Positions 1 through 12,233 of a stretch of DNA of 12,233 nt are shown here, one piece after another. Below the pieces are notes generated by a model. The model worked only from the letters and a program-made list of their open reading frames with translations. It searched no databases and had not been told where the DNA came from. The translations under genes were made by a program, and so were the position numbers. Source of the stretch: a bacterium (GTDB taxonomy: Bacteria; JAHJDO01); assembly GCA_030652805.1 (NCBI GenBank), contig JAUSPT010000050.1:1-12233 (forward strand), written 5' to 3'. How positions within the stretch are numbered: position 1 is the stretch's first letter; every line of letters begins with the position of its first letter.

Positions 1-1
1 A

Positions 2-103
2 CAAGGAGTTATCCACAATATGCACATAATTAACAAAAAGAAAAAGTTTGATCAAAAAGAAAAATTTACTACTACTAATCTTAACAAAATAGGACATTTC
101 TAA
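2..103 (+). CDS. Possible transposase C-terminus (partial, enters from left edge)
   Basis: An open frame runs from the left edge to a TAA at 101-103, giving 33 residues that end in NLNKIGHF. The tail is lysine-rich. Its last codons (gga cat ttc taa) lie inside the first copy of a 16-bp direct repeat at 92-107. This is the arrangement also seen at the right edge, where a second tail ends DLNIVHF inside an end repeat. By that parallel I infer the C-terminal end of a DDE-type, possibly IS481-like, transposase whose body lies outside the window. The residues alone are too few and too low in complexity to prove the family, and the frame could be fortuitous. Confidence 0.4.
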   Translation, partial: QGVIHNMHIINKKKKFDQKEKFTTTNLNKIGHF

Positions 104-140
104 ATGTTTTAAAAGCGGACATTTCTAAATGTGGTTGACA
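92..140 (+). mobile_element. Putative right end of an insertion sequence with paired direct repeats
   Basis: The 16-bp sequence ggacatttctaaatgt occurs at 92-107 and again, perfectly, at 117-132 (25-bp period). It is followed by ggttgaca ending at 140. Paired short repeats next to the transposase stop codon and a terminal ACA fit the transposase-binding end of an IS481-like element. The exact element boundary is inferred, and no target-site duplication can be tested because the other end is outside the window. Confidence 0.5.
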
Positions 141-146
141 ATTCTA

Positions 147-175
147 TTGACTTTATACGGACTTGGCATTATCTT
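147..175 (+). promoter_or_regulatory. Candidate sigma70-type promoter for the aminotransferase-uvrA operon
   Basis: TTGACT at 147-152 is separated by 17 nt from TATCTT at 170-175, which would start transcription near 182, just ahead of the first gene. A better -35 hexamer, TTGACA at 135-140, overlaps the putative IS end but has only TATACG (154-159) at a too-short 13-nt spacing. This is consensus matching by eye only. Confidence 0.4.
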
Positions 176-203
176 GTTTATCTAAGTTTAAGGGATAAAA
201 TTG

Positions 204-1397
204 GTGAATTCACATATCAAACCGGCTGGGAGAACAAAAGACATTAAATATGCTGTTAGAGATATTATGCTAATAGCTGATAAGGCAGCGTCTCAGGGCA
301 GGAAGATGCTTTATCTTAACATAGGTGATCCAATAAAATTTGATTTTAAAACACCTCCTCATATTGTTGAGGCTACATATGATGCAATGAAAAGTGGATT
401 TACAGGATATTCTCCATCGTCTGGAATTGATGAAGCGATTGAATCTGTTAAGAATGAAGCGTGTAGAAAGGGAATAAAAAATATTCAGGACATCTTTATT
501 ACAAATGGAGGAAGCGAAGCTATTGAAATAGCATTAACAAGTCTTGTGAATCCTGATGAAAATGTATTGATACCTTCACCTGGTTACCCTTTGTACACAG
601 CAGTGCTAACAAAGCTTGGAGCAGGAATCAATTCATATTACTTAGATGAGGAGAATGACTGGCAGCCAGACATTAATGATATAAAGAGAAAAATAGATAA
701 AAATACAAGAGCCATTATTCTTATAAATCCTAATAATCCAACAGGCGCAGTTTATACAAGGGAAACTCTTACCCAAATTGTTAATCTTGCTCTTGAGCAT
801 AATCTTGTAATATTTTCCGACGAAATATATGACAAACTTGTTTTTGATGCTGAGGAGCATATCTCTACCGCGTCTATCTCAAAAGAGGCATCTGTTCTTA
901 CTTTTGGCGGGCTTTCAAAGTCCTATCTATCTCCAGGGCTGCGTATTGGATGGTGTGTTGTGAGCGGTAAAGAGGAAAATTTAGGAGACTATTACAGGGC
1001 TATGCAGAAACTAACACGTGCAAGACTCTGCGCAAATCACCCTGAGCAATATGCAATAAAGCCAGCTTTAGAAGGGGATCAGTCACATATAAAAGAGGCA
1101 AATGCAAAGCTTAAACGAAGGGCAGATATTACATACCAAATGCTCAATGCTATTCCAAACGTCAGGTGTGTAAAACCAAGGGGAGCCTTTTATGCATTTC
1201 CTAAAATAGATGTGCCTGTATCAGACCAGAAATTTGTTTCTGATTTAATCTATGAAACAGGCGTTGTTGTTGTTCATGGTGGGGGATTCGGACAAAAGCC
1301 GGAAACAAAACACTTCAGAATTGTTTTCCTGCCGGAGGAAGATGTCTTAAGACAGGCATACAAAAAAATCAGGCAATTCATGACCAGGTATGAATAG
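204..1397 (+). CDS. AlaT-type alanine aminotransferase (class I PLP-dependent)
   Basis: This is a cytoplasmic fold-type I aminotransferase, most likely interconverting alanine plus 2-oxoglutarate and pyruvate plus glutamate. Counting from the upstream TTG at 201 (398 aa), the markers are [10 protein letters not shown] near residue 40, NPNNPTG at 176-182, SDEIYD at 206-211 with the cofactor-binding Asp and Tyr, the PLP lysine K240 in GLSKSY, RLCAN near 275, and the substrate-carboxylate arginine R373 in HFRIVFLP. The NIGDPxKFDF, DWQPDI and RARLCAN blocks resemble archaeal and E. coli AlaA-type alanine aminotransferases rather than aspartate enzymes. The length is normal. Start codons TTG 201 and GTG 204 are adjacent; GTG 204 is preferred because AAGGGA at 190-195 then has an 8-nt spacer. 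The stop overlaps the uvrA start by 8 nt, so the gene heads that operon. Substrate specificity is inferred from sequence resemblance. Confidence 0.87.
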
Positions 1398-4242
1398 CAA
1401 CAGTATAATCATCAAGGGCGCTCGCCAGCATAATCTTAAAAACATAGATCTGGAAATTCCCCGAGATAAACTTGTTGTTATTACCGGTCTTAGTGGTTCA
1501 GGGAAATCCTCTCTGGCTTTTGATACTATCTATGCAGAAGGCCAGAGAAGGTATGTAGAAAGCCTGTCTTCCTATGCGCGCCAGTTCCTTGAACAAATGG
1601 ATAAGCCTGATGTTGACTATATTGGAGGACTTTCTCCTGCTATCTCTATTGAACAAAGAACCTCTGCAAGAAACCCCCGCTCAACAGTTGGAACAGTAAC
1701 AGAAATTTACGACTATCTAAGGGTGTTGTTTGCACGCATAGGAGAAGTCTACTGTTATAAATGTGGAAGAAAAATTGCACATCAAACTTCCCAGCAAATC
1801 GTTGACAGCATTATGAAATTCCCTCAATCCTCTAAAATTATGCTTATGTCCCCAATAGTGAGAGGTAGAAAAGGGGAGTATAACGCTCTTTTTGAGGATA
1901 TTAGAAAGAAAGGCTTTGTAAGACTCAGAGTTGATGGGAACATCTATAATGTGGAAGACGAGATAAAACTCAATAAAAACAAAAAACACAACATTGAAGT
2001 CGTTGTAGACAGACTCGCTATAAAATCAGATATCAAATCACGTCTTAGTGATTCTGTAGAAACTGCTCTAAAACTGGGTGAAGGATTAATTTTGGTATGT
2101 ATCAACAATAAGAAAGATATCCTGTTTAGTGAACATTTTGCATGTATTAAATGTGGAATAAATTACTCTGAATTCACACCCCGTATGTTCTCGTTTAACA
2201 GCCCTTATGGTGCATGTAAAACATGTAATGGACTGGGCAGGAAGATGGAAGTTGATCCCGACCTGATCGTGCCTGATATGAATCTGTCAATTAATGAGGG
2301 CGCAATTATTTCGTGGAGCAATCCGATAACAACAAAACGCCACCGCTGGAAAGCAGCAACAAGAAGATACCTGTTTCAGATGCTGGAGACAGTTAGCGAT
2401 CACTATAATATAGACCTTGATATTCCATTCAAGAATTTAAGCAAAGAACATCAAAACATGATTCTGTATGGCACAGAAGAAAAACTGGATTTTACGTTGC
2501 GACTCAGACGTAGAATCCACAGACATAGAATGAAATTTGAGGGGGTAATTAATAACCTTGAGAGAAGATGGAGCCAGACTGATTCTGAATATGTAAAGTC
2601 AGAGATCTATAATAAATACATGAGAGTCAGATTATGCCCTGAGTGTGAAGGCGCAAGACTTTCCCCTCAGAGTCTTGCTGTAAGGATAAATAAGAAATCA
2701 ATAGCTAAAATATGTTCCTTATCAATTAAATCTGCTATCAGATTCTTTAATAATCTGCGTTTGGGTAAAACAGAAGAAGTTATTGCGCATGATATTCTAA
2801 AAGAAGTCAGGGAACGATTAACATTTCTCTCCAATGTAGGACTTGACTATATTACACTGGATAGAACAGCGCAGACTCTTTCAGGAGGAGAAGGAGAGAG
2901 AATCAGGCTCGCTACACAAATTGGCTCAGGTCTTGTTGGAGTATTGTATATCCTTGATGAGCCAAGTATTGGGCTTCACCAGAGAGATAATAGAAAATTA
3001 CTGAAGACATTAACCAGTCTGCGCGACCTGGGGAATACAGTTATTGTTGTAGAACATGATGAACAGACAATAAGAAATGCGGATTATGTAATAGATCTCG
3101 GTCCGGGAGCCGGCATTCACGGCGGAGATCTTGTAGCGTGCGGCAGGCCCGAAGAAATAATTAAAAATAGGAATTCTATTACAGGTAAATACCTGTCAGG
3201 AGAAATTAAGATTGGTACGCCAGAACAAAGAAGAAGGCCAACTGAAAAGCAGCTTAGAATACTTGGGGCTTTTGAACACAATTTAAAAAAGATAAACGTA
3301 AATATCCCTCTAGGGTTATTGGTCTGTGTTTCAGGCGTATCTGGTTCCGGTAAAAGCACACTGGTTGACGAAATACTGTACAGAGCTCTGGCTCAAATCC
3401 TATACGGCTCAAAAGAAAAGCCAGGTAAACATGTTGATATTAAAGGATTTTCTCAAATAGATAAAGTTGCAAATATCACTCAGGCGCCAATAGGCAGAAC
3501 CCCTCGTTCCAACCCTGCCACGTATACAGGTGCTTTTGATTATATAAGACGTCTGTTTTCTCAGGTTCCGGGCTCAAGGGCAAGGGGATATAAGCCTGGA
3601 AGATTCTCTTTTAATGTTAAAGGCGGAAGATGTGAGACATGTAAAGGTGACGGCTTAAAAAAGATTGAGATGCACTTCCTTCCTGATATTTATGTAACAT
3701 GCGAAACATGTAGAGGAACGCGATTCAATAGAGAAACTCTGGAGATTAAATACAAGGATAAAAGCATAGCAGACGTTTTGGATATGACAATTGAAGAAGC
3801 TCTGAAACTTTTTGAGAACATTCCGCCTGTAAAAAGAAAACTGCAGACTCTAAACGATGTAGGTCTCGGGTATATAAAATTAGGACAGTCTGCTACCACT
3901 CTCTCAGGAGGAGAAGCACAAAGGGTTAAGCTGGCTAGTGAATTAAGTAAGGTTTCAACAGGCAGGACGCTCTATATACTTGATGAACCAACCACAGGTC
4001 TGCATTTTGCAGATGTTCAGAAGTTATTGGATGTTTTAGGAAGATTAGTGGATAAAGGGAATACAGTGTTGATAATCGAGCATAATTTAGACGTTTTAAA
4101 AACAGCTGATTATATTATAGATCTTGGACCAGAGGGAGGAGACAATGGGGGAGAAGTCGTAGCAGAAGGAACTCCGGAACAAGTTGCTAAGAATAAGCGC
4201 TCATATACTGGAAAGTTTCTGAAGAAAGTTCTGGAATGCTGA
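1390..4242 (+). CDS. uvrA: UvrA, excinuclease ABC subunit A
   Basis: This is the DNA damage-sensing ATPase of nucleotide excision repair. It dimerises and loads UvrB at lesions. The 950 residues match the usual length of about 940-960. Two ABC ATPase modules are complete: Walker A GLSGSGKS at 33-40 and GVSGSGKS at 649-656, signature LSGGE at 497-501 and 838-842, and Walker B LYILDEP at 519-525 and 861-867. Zinc-binding cysteine pairs are C252/C255 with C276/C279 and C748/C751 with C771/C774. Further CxxC pairs sit at 122/125 and 416/419. The conserved [14 protein letters not shown] block is at 701-714, although the residue usually Asp just before it is Thr (NITQAP). The ATG overlaps the aminotransferase stop and has no strong Shine-Dalgarno, which suggests translational coupling. 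No frameshift or missing catalytic residue is seen. No SOS-box-like palindrome was recognised upstream of the operon. Confidence 0.98.
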
Positions 4243-4799
4243 TAATAGATGAAATTGTTGTTGACGATGCTATTCTTAAAACCCATTTTTCATGCTGCCT
4301 TGAGATCTGTCACGGACACTGCTGCGCAACAGGGGACTTTGGAGCACCAATATCTGAGGAAGATGTAGAAATAATAGATAAACATTTAAAAAACATTGAA
4401 AAATATCTTCCAAAGAAAAATATAAAAATCATAAAAAAGAATGGATACGCAGAAGTATATCGAAGTGGAACCCTTTGTGTTGAGTCCCTTTACGATGATG
4501 GACCGTGCGTTTTTTCATACAAGCATGAAGGAATAACCAAATGCGCTATTCATACTTATTGTGTGAACACTGAAATAGATCCTGTCCAAATAAAACCCAT
4601 ATCCTGCTCTCTATTTCCAATAAGGGTTATCCGACTGGGGAAAATAATATCATTAAGATACTGCCAGTATTCTGAATGTAAATCAGCTTTAGGAGGCTCA
4701 ACTCCTGTCTTTCAGACGTGTAAGAAAGCCCTTATTAGAATGTCTGGTAATCAGTGGTATAAAAAATTAGAGAAATGCTATGAAGAAAGTTCTATATAA
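4236..4799 (+). CDS. DUF3109-family cysteine-rich protein, putative metal-binding
   Basis: This is a 187-residue soluble protein of the DUF3109 type, related to the YkgJ-like zinc/iron-chelating fold. It opens with the family's typical short strand ([11 protein letters not shown]), then [11 protein letters not shown] at 20-30 (C21, C25, C29, C30). Later come the conserved GPCVFSY (C91), KCAIH (C103) and [11 protein letters not shown] (C124) blocks, and a C-terminal [11 protein letters not shown]. There are 14 cysteines in all, consistent with an Fe-S cluster or zinc. The biochemical role of the family is unknown. The ATG overlaps the uvrA stop by 7 nt, so it is probably co-translated with uvrA. 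Whether it is functionally linked to repair is conjecture. Its stop lies inside the end of the convergent VWA gene, an 8-bp overlap. Confidence 0.82.
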
Positions 4800-7023
4800 G
4801 CTGCAGCTTCTTTCTTATAAGCCATTCTGCGCTGAGAAGTATGATAAAAAGAAAAAGCAGTAGGGGAGAGTTATGCAATTTTATTCTGTAGGATGTGATT
4901 GTTTGCCTGTGCCTGGCTTTTATTTCATTAAAAATACCATATATATTCTCTGGTGTATGATATGCCCCTCCTGTAGATAAGGATATATCCTTAAGCAGCA
5001 CGTCATTTAAGCCAATGTCTTCCTCTTCCATGTAAGGATTGCCGACAGCAAATCCAATCAGTTCCTCTTTTGAAATGTCTTCAATTTTAGCAGTAGCTTT
5101 TAATTGATAATATCCGATATCATCTGCCTCATAATCTGCTTCATATTCTCCTGTCTTGCCTTCCACATTAGTCAAGTTCAGAAAAGTCTTTTTGTTTGAT
5201 GGTGTAGTTATTTGACAATTTATATTTGCTTTATCATATCTACGATATTCCTTATCATATGCAGACGCCATAATATGAATTATCTCACCGGGCTCGTAAT
5301 AATCCTTGTTTGTATATATGAGGAGATGATCTGTATCTTGCTTTGGCTTTTTATCTCCAGAGCACAGCCATCTCACCATCTGCCCCCAGAATGTCTGATA
5401 TATATTGATATTGATGTCTTCTGCAAATGCCCATTTCCATGTAGAATCAGTTGCTATAGCAGCTACTTTCCCTTCCCCGTAATTTTGGACTATCAATACT
5501 GGCCATTTTTTTAGGGATTTAGAGTCTGAAGCGTAGATAAGTACTATAGCCCCAGGCTTAGGCCTTGAGAGAAGATTAAACCCGGATAAAGCAGGTAATT
5601 GTGTTTTTGGATTCTTTAGAATCGGATGTCTGGATGCTTCAGGTGTAAGCACTGGTACAAAAGTTTTCCCTTCCCACTCGCCACTACCTTCTAAAGCGAC
5701 AGGAAATATCTTTGATAGCTCGCCTCTTTGATATCCTCCGCTTTCAAAGGAATTTTTACCGCCTAAAATGAGAAAACCGCCGCCATTTCCGGTGAAATTG
5801 ACAATATTAGAAGCAGATTTTTCATCAAACATGTTTTTAATATTTCCTAGAATGATAATGTCATATTCTTTAAGATTTTCCTTATGATGCAGAATATCAT
5901 TGAGTTCTCGATGTGTGGAAATCCCTTGTTGATAAAACTGTCCTGATGAAGTTAATATAAAAGCAGTAAGATCTATATGCGGGTCTGACTCAAGGGTCCT
6001 TTTAAGGAATTTATATTCCCATCTTAGACCTCCTTCAATATAGAGTGCCTTTGTTTTCTGCCTGGTTATGAGTACAGTAAAAGTCCTTTTATTGTTCTGC
6101 GTTATAAGCTCTCCTTCCAAAGGAGGAACCTCTGCGACATATCTACATACACCCACTTGTTTTGGAATAAGACCGATCTCCAGATTTTGTACATTCTCAG
6201 ATTCCTTTAGCAGCACACTACTGCTGGATATCACCTCTCCATCCAGCTCCACATTAACAGGAACTAGTTTTTCCTCATATCCTCGATTTTTAATCTTAAT
6301 ATCTATATTTATCTTTTCTCCCAAATATCCGGTTAATGGAGAACTGATATGGGTAATTGATACATCCTTAAATGATTTATTTGCCTTTATATTGCCCAGT
6401 CCAACACTGTATATTGGAACTGCGAGGCTTTTAATTCTTTTGACCGTATTTTTGCCTGCATTATTATTTCCATCAGTAAACAATACCACTCCGGATATAG
6501 GGCTTTCTCCCATTGTTTTAACAGCATTTTCTATTGAAGCAGCGATATCTGTAGAATTGCCATGCGCGCTGAGCTTTGCAGGTATGTCTTTTTCAGACAT
6601 CTCAGCAGAACCCTTTGAAAATTCAAATGTTCTAACTATAAACTGTTTAGATAGTGTTCTGATAAAATTATTTTCATCTCTATGGATTGTATCCTTAATT
6701 ATTTCCAATTTACTCTTTGGAGAAAAAGGGCCATGCCCACCCATGCTTTTTGAAGTATCAAACAAAAGCAGACAGCAGGATTTCTGAAGCTTCGATTTCA
6801 AGAAACTGATTGTCGGCCTTAACACTGCGCCTAGAATTATAATTATTAAAAGAATCCTGAGAAAAACTATCCAGCCTGCTTGCTTCCTGGAAAGAACAGA
6901 GTAAAGCCTGATATATGTTAGGATTACAGCAGTAATAGCTATGGCGAGTATTACGACCAGCAAAAAAAGATTTACTGGATTCTCAAACTCTATTCTTATA
7001 TTTTGCAGGCGCCACAAGTCCAT
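4792..7023 (-). CDS. Membrane-anchored VWA protein with degenerate glutamine amidotransferase-like domain
   Basis: This 743-residue membrane protein is the last gene of the moxR operon. Two N-terminal membrane segments (about 18-39 and 51-69) precede a von Willebrand A domain (about 83-210) with a complete-looking MIDAS: DTSKS at 89-93, T158 and D184 in FTDG. A beta-rich region (about 220-320) follows, then a class I amidotransferase-like fold (about 323-555; YIEGG near 328, GGGFLILGG at 414-422). No catalytic cysteine is apparent, so this domain probably binds rather than catalyses. A second beta-sandwich-like region (about 565-660) and a C-terminal membrane helix (about 719-736) complete it. 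The VWA and later domains are probably extracytoplasmic. The start ATG lies 7 nt after the preceding gene's stop. It shares its architecture with the upstream neighbour, suggesting an old duplication. Its exact function is unknown. Confidence 0.85.
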   Translation of the reverse strand: MDLWRLQNIRIEFENPVNLFLLVVILAIAITAVILTYIRLYSVLSRKQAGWIVFLRILLIIIILGAVLRPTISFLKSKLQKSCCLLLFDTSKSMGGHGPFSPKSKLEIIKDTIHRDENNFIRTLSKQFIVRTFEFSKGSAEMSEKDIPAKLSAHGNSTDIAASIENAVKTMGESPISGVVLFTDGNNNAGKNTVKRIKSLAVPIYSVGLGNIKANKSFKDVSITHISSPLTGYLGEKINIDIKIKNRGYEEKLVPVNVELDGEVISSSSVLLKESENVQNLEIGLIPKQVGVCRYVAEVPPLEGELITQNNKRTFTVLITRQKTKALYIEGGLRWEYKFLKRTLESDPHIDLTAFILTSSGQFYQQGISTHRELNDILHHKENLKEYDIIILGNIKNMFDEKSASNIVNFTGNGGGFLILGGKNSFESGGYQRGELSKIFPVALEGSGEWEGKTFVPVLTPEASRHPILKNPKTQLPALSGFNLLSRPKPGAIVLIYASDSKSLKKWPVLIVQNYGEGKVAAIATDSTWKWAFAEDININIYQTFWGQMVRWLCSGDKKPKQDTDHLLIYTNKDYYEPGEIIHIMASAYDKEYRRYDKANINCQITTPSNKKTFLNLTNVEGKTGEYEADYEADDIGYYQLKATAKIEDISKEELIGFAVGNPYMEEEDIGLNDVLLKDISLSTGGAYHTPENIYGIFNEIKARHRQTITSYRIKLHNSPLLLFLFIILLSAEWLIRKKLQLI

Positions 7024-7030
7024 GATTTAC

Positions 7031-9121
7031 CTATTTAACAGTTCTTGCACTTATAAACATTTTTTTGCGTTCAGCATAGGATGGAATAAATCTATTAGCT
7101 ATAATCCCCTCAACAAGGAGCAGCAATATTAATAGAAACAGTAAAGGATTTGAGAGTCTTACACCCTCTCTTGTTCTTCTCATACTTGGAATAATCTCAT
7201 CAAATGTAGATATAAAGCTCAAATTCCCTTTTATATACCTATTAATCTCATCTCTGGCTATTTTTGATAGATCTGACTCCTTAGTATCAAGGTTGACAGC
7301 AAATAGAGTCTTGCCTGGATTAATCTGATAAATACCGGACGTTTTTGTGTTGGTATAATTGAATGTATCATTCTCAATGGATGTAGTCTGCCAGAGAGTA
7401 CCATCCGGACTTATTACTGAAACTTCCTTCACATCAGGAGGAATCTTAAGCCTGAGTACTGAATTAGCTAAATAACTTTGCGGCTGAGTCGTATCTCGTT
7501 CCAGTGAATATATAATCTGATGCAGAAACGGCAAGTATGCAGGATGAATAGGGAAGTCATTCCACGAAATATTAGGAGAACTTGTAAACAGGAAGATTCT
7601 TCCTTTACTCAACTGTTTTTCTAAAAACATAGGATAACCATTTGTGTACCAGGATAGCACCTTTGTCGATTGTTCCAGGGCAGGATCATATTGTACAGCA
7701 TAAATCTTATAAAAATGGATATGGCTTAAATTGACATTTGTTCCTTCAAATATATCAAATATCTTGTTTTTATAATGTACTTTTGCAAACGTAAAAAAAT
7801 TAGAATGGTCATCTTCATCCCCCATAGACATAAGAAGTTTTGAAGGCAGTAATCCACTCTCATAAAAGATACGGTTATAATCCGGAACATTAGTATTATT
7901 TCCCAGGAATATCAGCAGGTTTCCTCCTTTATGTATGTATGGTTTTAGCATGTCTGCAATACCCTGATCGTTGACCTTTACGTTGGCAAGTATAACAAGA
8001 GAATATTTGTCCAACTTTTCAGATAAGAAGCTTTCTGTGGTTATTTCATCTATCTTTATGCTTGATAAGGCCCCTTTGGATGGGCTCAAAGCAGATCTTA
8101 AATAAAAACACTCATCTAAATATGGGAAAACAGATTTATGCCCATTAACGAGAAGTACTGGAAATACAGGAGCTGCTTTAACAGTAAAAAAATATTTATT
8201 ATCTATGCTCAGCTTGTCATGGTCAATACTGATATAGCCGTGGTGCAATCCCGGCTTATCCATGTCCACTGAGAAGTTTAGGATAATCTTTGATTTGGCA
8301 TCTATATATGCTGTCTGTTCCTGCTTTTTTACATTGTCAATATAGATATATACATTGGTCTTTGTTGCATAGTTTGAGAAATTATTTATCTCAGCATGCG
8401 CCTGTAGAGACATTCTCTGCACCTTAAGCTTTACGTCTGTTATTGCAGTATTAGAAAAATCTTCCTTTCCTGCATTCACAAGATATAGATGCACATCAGA
8501 GCTAAGATTAATTGGAGATTCTATATTATCCCATGAAACCTTTTGCAAATCTGTGATTAAGTATATCTCCTTATTAGGCCCTGCAGACTTAGTAAGAATT
8601 TTTATTGCTTTAGTTAAAGCCGTCCCAATGTCAGCATAATCATTTGATAATGAAATATCTGGCATAACATCCTCCAGACCACCTTGATATCCTCTGCCGT
8701 TCGTTAGAATAAGTGCAACTTCATCTGCTCTTTTAATAGATTTTAATATTTGTATAGCAGCATCCTTTGCCTTATCAAAAGGCGTATCTGTTCCTCTATA
8801 AGCCATGCTGTATGAATTATCAAGAATAATAACAGCGCTTACTGCTTTCCCTTTCCCGAAAAATGAAAATCCGGAGAATTTCACAACAGGTTCTGATATT
8901 GCAAGCGATATGAGTATAAGGATAAGGATTCTGAGCAATAATAATATGATTTGTCTGAGCTTTAATCTTGTCATTGTTCTAAGATGCGAGAGCTTTAAGA
9001 ATCTTAAAGTGCTAAATTGAATAGTTTCAGTTTTGCGATTTGATACCAGGTGTATTACGATAGGAATAATCCCTGACAACATACCAAAGAGGAAAATCGG
9101 ATTAAGAAAGAATATTGACAT
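7031..9121 (-). CDS. BatA-type VWA membrane protein (aerotolerance-regulator N-terminal domain)
   Basis: This is a 696-residue membrane protein. The N-terminus matches the BatA/aerotolerance-regulator type: NPIFLFGMLSGIIPIVIHL (membrane segment, about 6-26), then a basic stretch with RLKLRQ and a second membrane segment (about 57-77) ending in the typical AISEPV. A VWA domain (about 95-215) has the MIDAS motif DNSYS at 101-105, T168 and D191 in ITDLQ. Beta-rich and amidotransferase-like regions (about 225-540; VLLVNGH at 322-328, GGNLLIFLG at 399-407) follow, with a C-terminal membrane helix (about 657-676) and a short basic cytoplasmic tail. The stop codon of the DUF58 gene directly abuts this ATG (taa-atg), with no gap and only a weak ribosome site, so translation is presumably coupled. 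In Bacteroidetes, Bat proteins were linked to aerotolerance; that role here is only an analogy. Confidence 0.87.
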   Translation of the reverse strand: MSIFFLNPIFLFGMLSGIIPIVIHLVSNRKTETIQFSTLRFLKLSHLRTMTRLKLRQIILLLLRILILILISLAISEPVVKFSGFSFFGKGKAVSAVIILDNSYSMAYRGTDTPFDKAKDAAIQILKSIKRADEVALILTNGRGYQGGLEDVMPDISLSNDYADIGTALTKAIKILTKSAGPNKEIYLITDLQKVSWDNIESPINLSSDVHLYLVNAGKEDFSNTAITDVKLKVQRMSLQAHAEINNFSNYATKTNVYIYIDNVKKQEQTAYIDAKSKIILNFSVDMDKPGLHHGYISIDHDKLSIDNKYFFTVKAAPVFPVLLVNGHKSVFPYLDECFYLRSALSPSKGALSSIKIDEITTESFLSEKLDKYSLVILANVKVNDQGIADMLKPYIHKGGNLLIFLGNNTNVPDYNRIFYESGLLPSKLLMSMGDEDDHSNFFTFAKVHYKNKIFDIFEGTNVNLSHIHFYKIYAVQYDPALEQSTKVLSWYTNGYPMFLEKQLSKGRIFLFTSSPNISWNDFPIHPAYLPFLHQIIYSLERDTTQPQSYLANSVLRLKIPPDVKEVSVISPDGTLWQTTSIENDTFNYTNTKTSGIYQINPGKTLFAVNLDTKESDLSKIARDEINRYIKGNLSFISTFDEIIPSMRRTREGVRLSNPLLFLLILLLLVEGIIANRFIPSYAERKKMFISARTVK

Positions 9122-10015
9122 TTATCCCAGTCTTGCTCTTTTAGAAAGATATGAACACAGCGCTGCGTCCAGAGGCACAGATGTATCCGCCCTTACATAG
9201 TCTATCATCCCTTCAGAACAATCGCGCTTATACTTATGTGTAAAGCTGTCAATCTCTGCCCAATATTGCTCGCGGATAAGTTTAGGATTCACGGAAAGAG
9301 TTTTTTTTGTTTCTATATCTTGAAAAACAGCAGGCTTCTCATAAGGGAATGTTGTCTCATATTTATCAAGAACATGAAAGACAATGACCTCGTGTTTTTT
9401 ATGCCTGAAATGCTTTAGCCCTTTTATTACTGATTCTGCATCATCAAGCAGATCTGATATCAAAATTATTAACCCTCTTCTCTTTATTGTTTCAGCCAGA
9501 TCATGGCAGGTTTTGCTAATATTAGTTTTTTGTCCTGATGAGGTTCTATCAAGTGTTTGCAGGATATTTTTTAAGTGACCTCTACTGCATTTAGGTGGTA
9601 TATAATCTTTTATTTTTTCATCAAACACCACAAGACCTACAGAATCTCTTTGCTTAATCATCAGATAAGCAAGGGATGCAGCAAGAAAACAGCCATATTC
9701 ATACTTTGAAACATGTCCTGACTTGAAGAACATGGAATTACTTGCATCCAGAAGAATATAAGCTTTAAGATTTGTTTCCTCCTCATATCTCTTTATATAT
9801 AATTTATCTGTTTTTCCATATACTTTCCAGTCTACATGTTTTAGGTCATCTCCCAGGGAATATTCCTTATGTTCAGAGAATTCTACGCTGAATCCCTGAT
9901 ATGGACTTTTATGCAGGCCGGATATAAATCCTTCAACAACTAATTTTGCAACAAGGTTCAGGTTGGATATCTTTGCAATTACCTTTGGATCGAGAAACCT
10001 ACGATAGCTTTGCAT
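9122..10015 (-). CDS. DUF58 domain protein (VWA-like fold)
   Basis: This is a soluble 297-residue protein with no signal peptide or membrane segment. The DUF58 signature is clear: EYSLGDDLKHVDWKVYGKTD begins at residue 51 and continues into a KRYEEE block ending at 80. It is followed by a VWA-like core with the MIDAS-type motif DASNS at 90-94, T164 in the second loop and SDLLDD near 187-192. DUF58 proteins are almost always encoded beside MoxR ATPases and are thought to be their cytoplasmic partner or adaptor. Here the gene overlaps moxR by 17 nt and abuts the BatA-type gene. A short AAGG lies a few nt before the ATG. The biochemical role in this operon is inferred from context. Confidence 0.92.
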   Translation of the reverse strand: MQSYRRFLDPKVIAKISNLNLVAKLVVEGFISGLHKSPYQGFSVEFSEHKEYSLGDDLKHVDWKVYGKTDKLYIKRYEEETNLKAYILLDASNSMFFKSGHVSKYEYGCFLAASLAYLMIKQRDSVGLVVFDEKIKDYIPPKCSRGHLKNILQTLDRTSSGQKTNISKTCHDLAETIKRRGLIILISDLLDDAESVIKGLKHFRHKKHEVIVFHVLDKYETTFPYEKPAVFQDIETKKTLSVNPKLIREQYWAEIDSFTHKYKRDCSEGMIDYVRADTSVPLDAALCSYLSKRARLG

Positions 10016-11033
10016 AATCCTTTTCTGTTGGTTCTGTAATTGTATTGAGCAGCTTCTCTATAATCTTCTCTGAGTCTATTCCTTCAGCTTCTGCATTAAA
10101 ATTAATAATAATTCTATGTCTGAGCACAGGAGGAGCAACACTTCTCACATCCTCACAAGATACATTATAGTCACCTCGTGTTATTGCTCTTGCTTTTGCG
10201 CCGAGTATTAGATACTGAGCAGCTCTTGGCCCTGCCCCCCAGCTGACCCAGTCTTTTATGAATTCAGGAGCAGAAGCATCCTTTGGCCTGGATGCTCTTA
10301 CAATGTTTGTCGCATATATGACTACATGGTCAGAAACAGGAATGCGCCTTGTGATTCTCTGAAGTGCGAGTATCTTTTCCCCATTCAATACAGGGCTGAG
10401 TTCAGTATTGGTTTCGTATGTAGTAGATTTGACTATTTCCTGCTCTTCAGTTTTGGAAGGATAGTCTATGTTAATATTAAACATAAATCTATCCAGCTGC
10501 GCCTCAGGCAAAGGGTATGTGCCCTCCTGCTCTATAGGATTCTGTGTCGCTAAAATAAAAAACGGAAGCTCCAGAGGATAGGTTATACCTCCTGCAGTTA
10601 CTTCATATTCCTGCATTGCTTCAAGCAAGGCAGCCTGTGTTTTTGGTGGTGTCCTGTTTATCTCATCAGCCAGCACTATATTTGCAAAGATCGGACCTTC
10701 TATAAATTTGAAACTTCTCTTGTGCGTTTGAGAATCCTCCTCCATGATATCCGTGCCTGTAATATCTGAGGGCATAAGGTCAGGAGTAAACTGAATTCTT
10801 TTAAACTTTAAATCCATGACCTGCGCAATTGTATTTACCATCAGTGTTTTTGCCAGTCCGGGCACGCCGACAACAAGGCAATGACCTCTGGAAAACATAG
10901 CAATCAAAATTTCATCTACTATCTGCTGCTGACCAATAATCACCTTGCGAATTTCTTTTAAGATTTTCTCTCTGGCATCCTTAAATTCTTCAATTGCCCC
11001 TAAATCCGCTTCAACAATCTTACTGTCGTCCAT
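9999..11033 (-). CDS. MoxR-family AAA+ ATPase
   Basis: This 344-residue cytoplasmic AAA+ ATPase leads the four-gene operon. Walker A is GVPGLAKT at 56-63, the Walker B segment is NIVLADE at 118-124, and the MoxR-typical NRTPPKTQAALLEAMQE follows. Sensor 1 falls at N165 (ATQNP), the arginine finger is probably R182 (LDRF), and the C-terminal lid includes WGAGPRAAQYL around 265-274. MoxR ATPases act as chaperone-like remodellers of VWA-containing partners, and three VWA-fold genes follow here. The start is well supported: AAGGAGGA on the minus strand at 11048-11041 lies 7 nt before the ATG, the strongest ribosome-binding site in the window. Length and motifs are normal. Confidence 0.96.
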   Translation of the reverse strand: MDDSKIVEADLGAIEEFKDAREKILKEIRKVIIGQQQIVDEILIAMFSRGHCLVVGVPGLAKTLMVNTIAQVMDLKFKRIQFTPDLMPSDITGTDIMEEDSQTHKRSFKFIEGPIFANIVLADEINRTPPKTQAALLEAMQEYEVTAGGITYPLELPFFILATQNPIEQEGTYPLPEAQLDRFMFNINIDYPSKTEEQEIVKSTTYETNTELSPVLNGEKILALQRITRRIPVSDHVVIYATNIVRASRPKDASAPEFIKDWVSWGAGPRAAQYLILGAKARAITRGDYNVSCEDVRSVAPPVLRHRIIINFNAEAEGIDSEKIIEKLLNTITEPTEKDYAKLS

Positions 11034-11080
11034 TTCAACATCCTCCTTAAATTACTTCGCATAACCTTTGTTAGAAACTC

Positions 11081-11109
11081 ATTATAAATCACAACTACAA
11101 AACAATCCA
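11081..11109 (-). promoter_or_regulatory. Candidate promoter for the moxR operon
   Basis: Read on the minus strand there is a perfect TATAAT at 11086-11081. At 17 nt upstream lies TGGATT (11109-11104), a weak -35. Transcription would start near 11075, leaving a leader of about 40 nt before the strong Shine-Dalgarno and ATG at 11033. The -10 is convincing and the -35 is not. Confidence 0.45.
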
Positions 11110-11144
11110 TTCGTTTTTTTGATGAAATTCTCCGCCCTTTTTTC

Positions 11145-11173
11145 TTTATGGTTTTGGGATGGGGGAGTATAAT
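11145..11173 (+). promoter_or_regulatory. Candidate upstream promoter for the ClpP-like gene
   Basis: A perfect TATAAT at 11168-11173 lies 17 nt after TTTATG (11145-11150). The -35 is poor, and the leader to the preferred start would be about 90 nt. It points away from the moxR promoter. Confidence 0.35.
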
Positions 11174-11191
11174 GCTTTTTGTCTATTTTTA

Positions 11192-11220
11192 TTGAGGTTT
11201 TAAGCAATTTAAGCTATGGT
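11192..11220 (+). promoter_or_regulatory. Second candidate promoter for the ClpP-like gene
   Basis: TTGAGG at 11192-11197 and TATGGT at 11215-11220 are separated by 17 nt, each matching four of six consensus bases. A start near 11227 would leave about 45 nt before the ATG at 11273. It may be an alternative to, or act with, the TATAAT box at 11168-11173. Confidence 0.35.
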
Positions 11221-11272
11221 AACACTAAAGTAGAAGTGACTTAAATAATTAATGTTAGGGGGAACAAAGAAT

Positions 11273-11839
11273 ATGAAATACAATGCAGACACATTTTTTA
11301 TCACCTTTGTTGATTCAATAAATGAAGAGAAAGTAAAAACCCTAATTGCCATTATTGCGGATGTCATCCATAAAAATAAACCATCGCAAATATACATTTT
11401 ATTTTCCTCCGGTGGCGGGGGAATAAATGCTGGGATCACTCTTTACAACTTCCTTCGTGCTCTCCCTACTGAAGTTGTGTTCCACAACATAGGTTCCGTA
11501 GATTCCATAGCGACGTGTATTTTCCTCGCTGGTAATAAGCGATACGCCAGCAGTAATTCCAATTTCTTGTTTCACGGTGTCACATGGACATTCGGTCAAG
11601 GGGCTGCCCTCAATCGAAAGCAACTCCATGAATGCATCAGTACAATTCAACAAAACGAGAATGATTATGCTAATATCATCACCAGTCGTACTTCCATAAG
11701 CAAGAAGGAGATATTTTCTCTACTCGACCAAGGAGAATCTAAAGGACTTGAGTTTGCTCTCGAAAAGGGAATTATTCATGAGGTTTGCGAGGTGTCTATT
11801 CCCACTGGCTATAATCATATCGCATGTAACCTCAAGTGA
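11273..11839 (+). CDS. ClpP-fold serine protease-like protein, stand-alone
   Basis: This 188-residue protein is of the ClpP/crotonase fold. In numbering from ATG 11273: an oxyanion-type glycine run SSGGGG at 45-50, then NFLRALP at 59-65, a nucleophile candidate S78 in GSVDSIA, H101 in FLFHG, and an acidic candidate D152 in SLLDQG. The S-to-H and H-to-D spacings (23 and 51) are close to those of E. coli ClpP (25 and 49). It lacks the N-terminal axial-loop segment of housekeeping ClpP, and no ClpX/ClpA-type ATPase is nearby. ATG 11273 is preferred over ATG 11252 because AGGGGG at 11257-11262 sits 10 nt before it and nothing suitable precedes 11252. All four arginine codons are CGN, whereas uvrA makes frequent use of AGA/AGG, a mild hint of separate origin. 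The ATP-independent role and substrate are unknown. Confidence 0.78.
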   Translation: MKYNADTFFITFVDSINEEKVKTLIAIIADVIHKNKPSQIYILFSSGGGGINAGITLYNFLRALPTEVVFHNIGSVDSIATCIFLAGNKRYASSNSNFLFHGVTWTFGQGAALNRKQLHECISTIQQNENDYANIITSRTSISKKEIFSLLDQGESKGLEFALEKGIIHEVCEVSIPTGYNHIACNLK

Positions 11840-11843
11840 TGTT

Positions 11844-11856
11844 CCAATAGTATTGG
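11844..11856. repeat. 13-bp perfect palindrome after the ClpP-like gene
   Basis: CCAATA-G-TATTGG lies a few bases after the TGA of the ClpP-like gene. It is too tight for a strong hairpin and has no T-run, so it is more plausible as a protein-binding site than as a terminator. No other function is visible. Confidence 0.3.
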
Positions 11857-11955
11857 GGGTAGTGGAAGATTTGTGCATTTTGGGGCGGTATAGGATTTTA
11901 TTCATAAAGTAAAGGGATACAGAAACCTTTAAAAACAATGTCAAACCTTAACCAC

Positions 11956-11977
11956 CCGAATTCCCCAATCAATTCGG
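11956..11977. repeat. Inverted repeat, 7-bp stem
   Basis: CCGAATT (11956-11962) and AATTCGG (11971-11977) flank an 8-nt loop. It is the first of a run of palindromes in the otherwise gene-free stretch 11840-12130. No T-run follows, so it does not look like an intrinsic terminator. Confidence 0.5.
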
Positions 11978-11989
11978 AGAATGACAAAC

Positions 11990-12015
11990 GGGCAGCTGCA
12001 AGGGCTGCCCCTACA
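11990..12015. repeat. Inverted repeat GGGCAGC/GCTGCCC followed by CTACA (REP-like)
   Basis: GGGCAGC at 11990-11996 pairs with GCTGCCC at 12004-12010 across a 7-nt loop, then CTACA follows. From memory, palindromes of the form GGGC...GCCCCTACA with a variable stem are scattered in intergenic DNA of many uncultured and environmental bacteria. That identification was not tested here. It is GC-richer than its surroundings. Confidence 0.55.
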
Positions 12016-12017
12016 AT

Positions 12018-12060
12018 AACCGCCAGCTAAAGCAGGCGGTTGTGGGGGAGGGGACAACCG
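12018..12060. repeat. Two overlapping, mutually exclusive hairpins
   Basis: AACCGCC (12018-12024) can pair with GGCGGTT (12035-12041). Alternatively CGGTTGT (12037-12043) can pair with ACAACCG (12054-12060) around the purine loop gggggagggg. Both stems are 7 bp and share 12037-12041, so only one can form at a time. There is no coding gene around them to suggest an attenuator; they may be part of a nested palindromic repeat. Confidence 0.5.
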
Positions 12061-12095
12061 ATTGCTTCGGGATTTTATGGTTCAAAAAGTATTTC

Positions 12096-12143
12096 TGTTA
12101 GATAAAATTTAAAAGTGCACAGTTTAAAGTTTAAAAGTGCACA
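12096..12143 (-). mobile_element. Putative end of a second insertion sequence with paired direct repeats
   Basis: tttaaaagtgcaca occurs perfectly at 12108-12121 and 12130-12143 (22-bp period). TGTTA at 12096-12100 precedes it, so the element read on the minus strand would finish TAACA. The inner copy contains the stop codon of the transposase tail at 12133-12131. The structure mirrors the left-edge element but with a different repeat sequence. The boundary at 12096 is inferred. Confidence 0.55.
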
Positions 12144-12232
12144 ATATTTAGGTCTTCATTTTTAGCTGTTTGAACACCAACAAGCCTATTGTCATACCAG
12201 CACCTGATTTCAGATATGCCAGTTTTCTCATC
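12131..12232 (-). CDS. Transposase/integrase C-terminus (partial, enters from right edge)
   Basis: On the minus strand a frame enters from the right edge and gives 33 residues including WYDNRLVGVQTAKNEDL, ending in NIVHF and TAA at 12133-12131. The pattern of an aromatic-rich strand, the words LVGVQ and a stop inside an end repeat resembles the C-terminal beta-strand region of IS481-like DDE transposases. The catalytic domain lies beyond the window, so the family is a suggestion. No frame disruption is visible in this piece. Confidence 0.55.
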   Translation of the reverse strand, partial: DEKTGISEIRCWYDNRLVGVQTAKNEDLNIVHF

Positions 12233-12233
12233 A

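Follow-up and report, generated by a model that had tools for sequence, protein, structure and literature searches.

Insertion sequences of the IS1202 family encode a transposase whose hallmark is a Q seven residues after the catalytic E, and are known to carry a doubled repeat at either end (Harmer et al. 2023, PMC10132070). Its long-duplication group (IS1202, ISTde1, ISHahy13 and ISVisp7) makes target duplications of 16 bp or more, and Harmer, Pong and Hall found no target for these elements (PMC10132070). In the short-duplication group, the dif hunters of the ISAjo2 type choose a point 5 bp away from the XerC site of dif (PMC10132070) and so come to lie flush with a protein-binding site after a short duplication. 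Duplications near 4, 15 and 25 bp, one helical turn apart, are found in IS481, IS1202 and the eukaryotic IS481EU elements (PMC10045372), which have related transposases; promoter targeting has not been reported for IS481 or IS481EU.

The window, i.e. the whole 12,233-base stretch of DNA analysed here, is the entire contig C50 of a 2.0-Mb, 102-contig genome. Both of its edges are very probably the 3' ends of distantly related IS1202-family elements, IS-L on the left and IS-R on the right, that insert at a fixed geometry beside promoters; this rests on the end structure, the family assignment and the target duplications, on many independent insertions in which a promoter meets the duplication edge, and on one exact empty site that bears the promoter. 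The genes between the edges are ordinary: a class I/II aminotransferase gene (201-1397, plus strand, Pfam Aminotran_1_2), uvrA, a gene for a DUF3109 protein, an equally ordinary MoxR / DUF58 / BatA-like group (10002-4795, minus strand), and a Clp-protease-like gene (11252-11839) that adjoins the right IS. Many contigs of the host genome, a fragmented assembly with 2% contamination, start or stop within the same few repeats, and since the window is itself a complete contig, its edges are assembly breaks inside multicopy ISs, not borders of a mobile 12-kb unit.

The left edge (1-140, plus strand) is the 3' end of IS-L variant A, consisting of the transposase tail and the right terminal repeats, as seen by comparison with the copy in L006 and with copies of 98-100% identity at other contig ends. 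The final transposase codons, ...TRSYPQYAHN, occupy positions 1-33 in frame 1, with the TAA stop at 31-33. The L006 copy runs for 1470 bp from the 3' flank to the 5' end and encodes a transposase of 423 aa, which likewise ends ...YPQYAHN* with its stop at the place corresponding to window positions 31-33. Two 22-nt terminal repeats follow on the plus strand with a period of 25 bp, the inner at 86-107 and the outer at 111-132, and the element finishes in ...TTGACA at position 140. The next six bases, ATTCTA (141-146), are a probable target duplication: the identical 6 bp end contig C45, and the flank in C45 and the left flank of the window are contiguous in the sister genome G003. ATTCTA may instead reflect two different insertions at one promoter. 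Directly beyond it, at 147-175 on the plus strand, is the targeted promoter upstream of the aminotransferase gene (-35 TTGACT, 147-152; 17-bp spacer; -10 TATCTT, 170-175). The left insertion (1-146) has a type-A right end in the window and a type-C left end on its 5' flank (L043, contig C45), and may represent either a C/A hybrid or a mixture of two strains, each with its own IS flush against this promoter. Occupancy of the left site differs among sister species.

The right edge (12096-12233, minus strand) is the 3' end of IS-R, again a transposase tail with terminal repeats, and is matched by a complete copy in L024 of 1559 bp with a transposase of 419 aa. The repeats, 19 nt each with a period of 22 bp, lie on the minus strand at 12103-12121 (outer) and 12125-12143 (inner), and the minus-strand end reads ...TAACA, so that TGT stands at 12096-12098. 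The element is bordered by a 15-bp target duplication, TTCAAAAAGTATTTC (12081-12095), whose second copy is followed by TTGACA in contig C95; the right edge of the window thus runs on into C95 through TTCAAAAAGTATTTC|TTGACA.

IS-L and IS-R are distantly related members of the IS1202 family (ISNCY_2) with diverged ends, as judged from sequence. Their transposases share 24% identity by BLASTP and are aligned by hhalign with 99.7% probability; against NCBIfam ISNCY_2 (cut-off 250) IS-L scores 399 bits, above the cut-off, and IS-R 148 bits, below it. Each element has a single DDE transposase within the family's range of 394-507 aa, with Q seven residues past the catalytic E (E258/Q265 in IS-L, a spacing invariant across 14 relatives; ...KVERPYRWIQ in IS-R). 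The outer ends are TGT/ACA, both lengths are within the family's ~1.3-1.75 kb, and a second, internal copy of the end repeat is found at each end of both elements, the inner/outer pair at the left end of IS-L being imperfect. The first-pass annotation had proposed two members of one IS family with different repeat sequences, and on both counts it was right; doubled repeats, ACA ends and inward orientation are also common to the two edges, as it had proposed. Annotations of plasmid proteins from the family name IS1202-like or ISNCY-like elements (ISEsa1, ISKpn21, ISLad2). Compared with the 16-28 bp of the long-duplication group, the duplications are 16 bp for variant C, 15-16 bp for IS-R, 16 or 7 bp for variant B and 6 bp for variant A.

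The predicted fold of the IS-L transposase (mean pLDDT 77.7) has two N-terminal helical (HTH) domains, an RNase H-like core and a beta-rich (beta-barrel) domain, which is the TnsB-like domain order of the IS1202 family. In a Foldseek search the model resembles IstA and TnsB, and a sequence-profile search recovers the same proteins. The similarity in sequence and fold thus extends to TnsB of Tn7 and type V-K CAST and to IstA of IS21, but IS-L and IS-R have no accessory gene of the TnsC/IstB type, and the transposase together with a host feature seems to suffice for targeting.

Reading outward from all copies in the host genome, both ISs sit flush against sigma70-type promoters. In variant A, 5-7 nt past the 3' end are followed by TTGACA-17-TATAAT; in variants B and C the interval between 3' end and promoter is 16 nt (about 15-16, and 7 in one B copy); in IS-R the promoter is on the 5' side, 15-16 nt from the end. 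When scored with a generic sigma70-type matrix, not one derived from promoters of the host, the site at the expected offset is the best or near best of 330 positions in almost every copy. The peak for variant A is at offset 5-7 (z 9.6, n=10; 8/10 score at least 7, against 0.8% in the background), for B/C-type ends at 16 (z 9.4, n=9, two of them from other genomes; 7/9 score at least 7) and for IS-R at 15-16 (z 6.7, n=4; 3/4 score at least 7); some boundaries were set by eye ahead of scoring, and the regularity had been noticed before it was scored on the same data, so that relatives provide the more independent test. One misfit in the host genome is L006, with a weak -35, CAACTC.

Matching of flanks across contigs gave the target duplications: two pairs of variant C have 16 bp, IS-R has 15 and 16 bp, and variant A has 6 bp. 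Comparison of 5' with 3' flanks of variant B gives 16, 16 and 7 bp; the first base past each duplication is the start of the -35 box. Among the B copies (L039/L010, L037/L012, L038/L011), one has 7 bp and two others 16 bp, and the -35 edge is fixed in all. Lengths of 6/7 and 16 bp fit the helical-turn classes known from IS481 and its relatives if distances are counted from the constant -35 edge. The empty site of one variant A insertion exists in the sister genome G002, matching at 115 of 118 positions; the promoter is there uninterrupted, and the 6 bp occur a single time. The promoter therefore predates the insertion and was not created by it.

Relatives came from genomes (overlapping sets, up to 385), from GTDB contigs, from IMG/VR and from plasmids. 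A TTG hexamer of the -35 type stands at the duplication edge in all 17 independent insertions with 15-18 bp duplications, exactly at the edge in 15 and shifted by 1 in two; 16 of the 17 score at least 7, as do 0.5% of other positions when the same best-of-two-sides rule is applied. In nine or ten of these insertions the hexamer lies to the right of the element, in the others to its left. Among the 17 are five copies from one single-contig genome, a Paenibacillus plasmid, a viral contig, and MAGs labelled Nitrospirae, Smithella and Planctomycetia. Among other relatives, nothing clear was seen at the edge in L074 and L077, and L109 was weak; of ten plasmid relatives of other subgroups, five yielded no matching reading frame, and the other five, with poorly resolved ends, had no promoter at the edge, as would be expected if they belong to the dif-targeting or no-duplication groups. 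A scan of viral contigs for relatives of IS-R found none, nor did two more viral scans with the L213 and L097 proteins as queries. By eye, a dif-like sequence lies beside several viral and plasmid relatives. For IS-L and IS-R themselves dif targeting was considered and rejected, as their flanks are -35/-10 promoters rather than a dif-like sequence with its XerC site 3-5 bp away. The phage records PQ189311-PQ189386, small Vibrio cyclitrophicus phage-like sequences of about 9-13 kb, carry at one record end a protein related to IS1202-family transposases (~300 matched residues).

The closest described elements can now be compared. The named members of the long-duplication group, compared by description, are like IS-L and IS-R in size, in their long duplications and TGT/ACA ends, and in having a single TnsB-like DDE transposase of 400-500 aa with Q at E+7; they have no reported target, whereas IS-L and IS-R go to the -35 edge of promoters. 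ISAjo2-type elements belong to the same family and share the flush position, but here the neighboring site is a promoter and not dif, longer duplications are usual, and both orientations occur among relatives. Although no promoter targeting is reported for IS481, it is seen in a third, IS481-like element of the same genus, IS-X, with the end ...CCAGCCAGCACA (L114/L120 in G002; L118-L145). IS-X scores 189.9 bits against NCBIfam IS481 (cut-off 224) and in many copies lies 5 bp upstream of TTGACA-type promoters (peak offset 5, z about 11; 7/17 score at least 7); no target duplication could be recognized for its one long copy, L143. The aminotransferase promoter taken by IS-L in the window has, in G002, a remnant of IS-X 5 bp upstream of it.

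The mechanism that we favor would begin with a TnsB/IstA-like transposase, bound to the doubled end repeats, recognizing a promoter, most likely as the RNA polymerase-sigma70 complex. Strand transfer would then occur just upstream, one strand being joined flush with the upstream edge of the -35 box (-35 TTGACA, 17 bp, -10 TATAAT), which would become the duplication edge, and the other 5-7 or 15-18 bp further upstream. The core promoter stays intact, and insertions should therefore be mild.

A simpler account, which we regard as unlikely but of real weight, is that the transposase reads the TTGACA hexamer alone, for example for its resemblance to the element's own right end, and that promoters are struck for containing it. 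Indeed, 15 of the 16 IS-L-type right ends compared finish in TTGACA, and the hexamer is the best conserved feature of the target, its TTG being invariant among the 17 insertions described above. Against it, the -10 score over 39 sites, IS-X included, has a sharp maximum at a spacing of 17 when spacings from 8 to 26 are compared, and the -10 after targeted hexamers scores far above that of 886 controls with the same hexamer (P 1.6e-15), which rarely have a -10 at 16-18 bp and were drawn from all collected sequence, not from intergenic DNA alone. Moreover, the ends of IS-R (CTGACA, CTAACA) and of IS-X (AGCACA) are not TTGACA, yet these elements use the same type of site, and a few sites (L006, L106) combine a weak -35 with a good -10. 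A -10 at fixed spacing beyond the hexamer favors recognition of the whole promoter, which would most simply take place through bound RNA polymerase.

The ends of IS-L-type elements have features of their own. Left ends mostly carry TGATAATGTCC (L006, L014, L051, L070, L084, L110 etc.), and, going by the terminal sequences, joining such an end to the right TTGACA through a 3-bp spacer would give a putative circle-junction promoter, TTGACA-17-GATAAT. Junction promoters occur in circle-forming IS families. Between variants A and C (L006 vs L014), identity over the 3' ~950 bp, which run from position ~540 to the C-terminal region and hold the catalytic half, is mostly 77-98% with about 90% as the typical value. 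Over the first ~500 bp, which comprise the left end and the N-terminal DNA-binding region, it is mostly 43-70%, and the right-end repeats differ as well. The DNA-binding half and the end repeats have thus changed together between variants of one element, and such mosaic variants are a natural experiment on the co-evolution of ends and transposase. Co-variation of repeats with the DNA-binding region had been anticipated by the first-pass annotation, and is found here between A and C, a different comparison from the one it proposed.

Where that annotation went astray is in reading both edges as one IS design, in which HF-stop codons within the inner repeat double as transposase-binding sequence and are conserved as such. 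In the right lineage this holds: the minus-strand transposase of IS-R ends ...EDLNIVHF* with its stop at 12131-12133, inside the inner repeat, and degraded relatives have preserved the HF-stop, as NIVHF* in G001 and as NLLHF* in G031, while a copy in G042 with a frameshift reads NLVSF*. On the left, the apparent GGA CAT TTC TAA, GGACATTTCTAA (92-103), does lie in the inner repeat but belongs to frame 2, outside the transposase frame; the intact copy refutes the reading there, with the transposase stopping 60 nt ahead of the repeat and in another frame, and relatives of IS-L end before, within or across the repeats in several frames. Because the left stop is in frame 1 and the relatives end so variously, the stop-in-repeat arrangement is not shared, and a double role of these codons at both edges is very improbable.

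Survivor bias, i.e. wide insertion tolerated only upstream of intact promoters, we consider slightly less probable still. It fits the finding that most sites are upstream of genes and leave the core promoter intact, but selection leaves unexplained a distance fixed to within 1-2 bp and its match to the duplication length, and the Paenibacillus insertion is apparently inside a transposase gene, next to a promoter-like sequence in antisense orientation (read by eye). As for a 12-kb composite transposon borne between the two inward-facing ISs, which the first-pass annotation also doubted, its probability is close to nil: a composite consists of a block and, on either side of it, copies of the same IS that mobilize it as a whole, whereas these two ISs differ and occupy separate target sites, the right one with its own 15-bp duplication leading into C95, the left site being otherwise occupied in sister species and its flank contiguous with that of C45 in the sister genome, and the window stops where its contig stops. 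The two ISs were inserted independently of each other.

Promoters are thus likely to be the target of long-duplication IS1202 elements, for which none was known, and the precise target, the -35 edge, recurs in several lineages. In the open-access journal literature we found no report of promoter-edge targeting by the IS1202 family. More tentatively, and with slightly less than even confidence, we suggest that target choice in a large branch of the family depends on recognition of promoter-bound RNA polymerase holoenzyme, as a counterpart of the branch proposed to recognize XerC at dif; the IS1202 family would then consist of elements that various DNA-bound proteins of the host guide to their sites, the insertion distance being set in helical-turn steps. 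Steering of a lone transposase by promoter-bound polymerase would, if true, be a new targeting route for DDE transposons and would explain how these elements reach high copy number at little damage.
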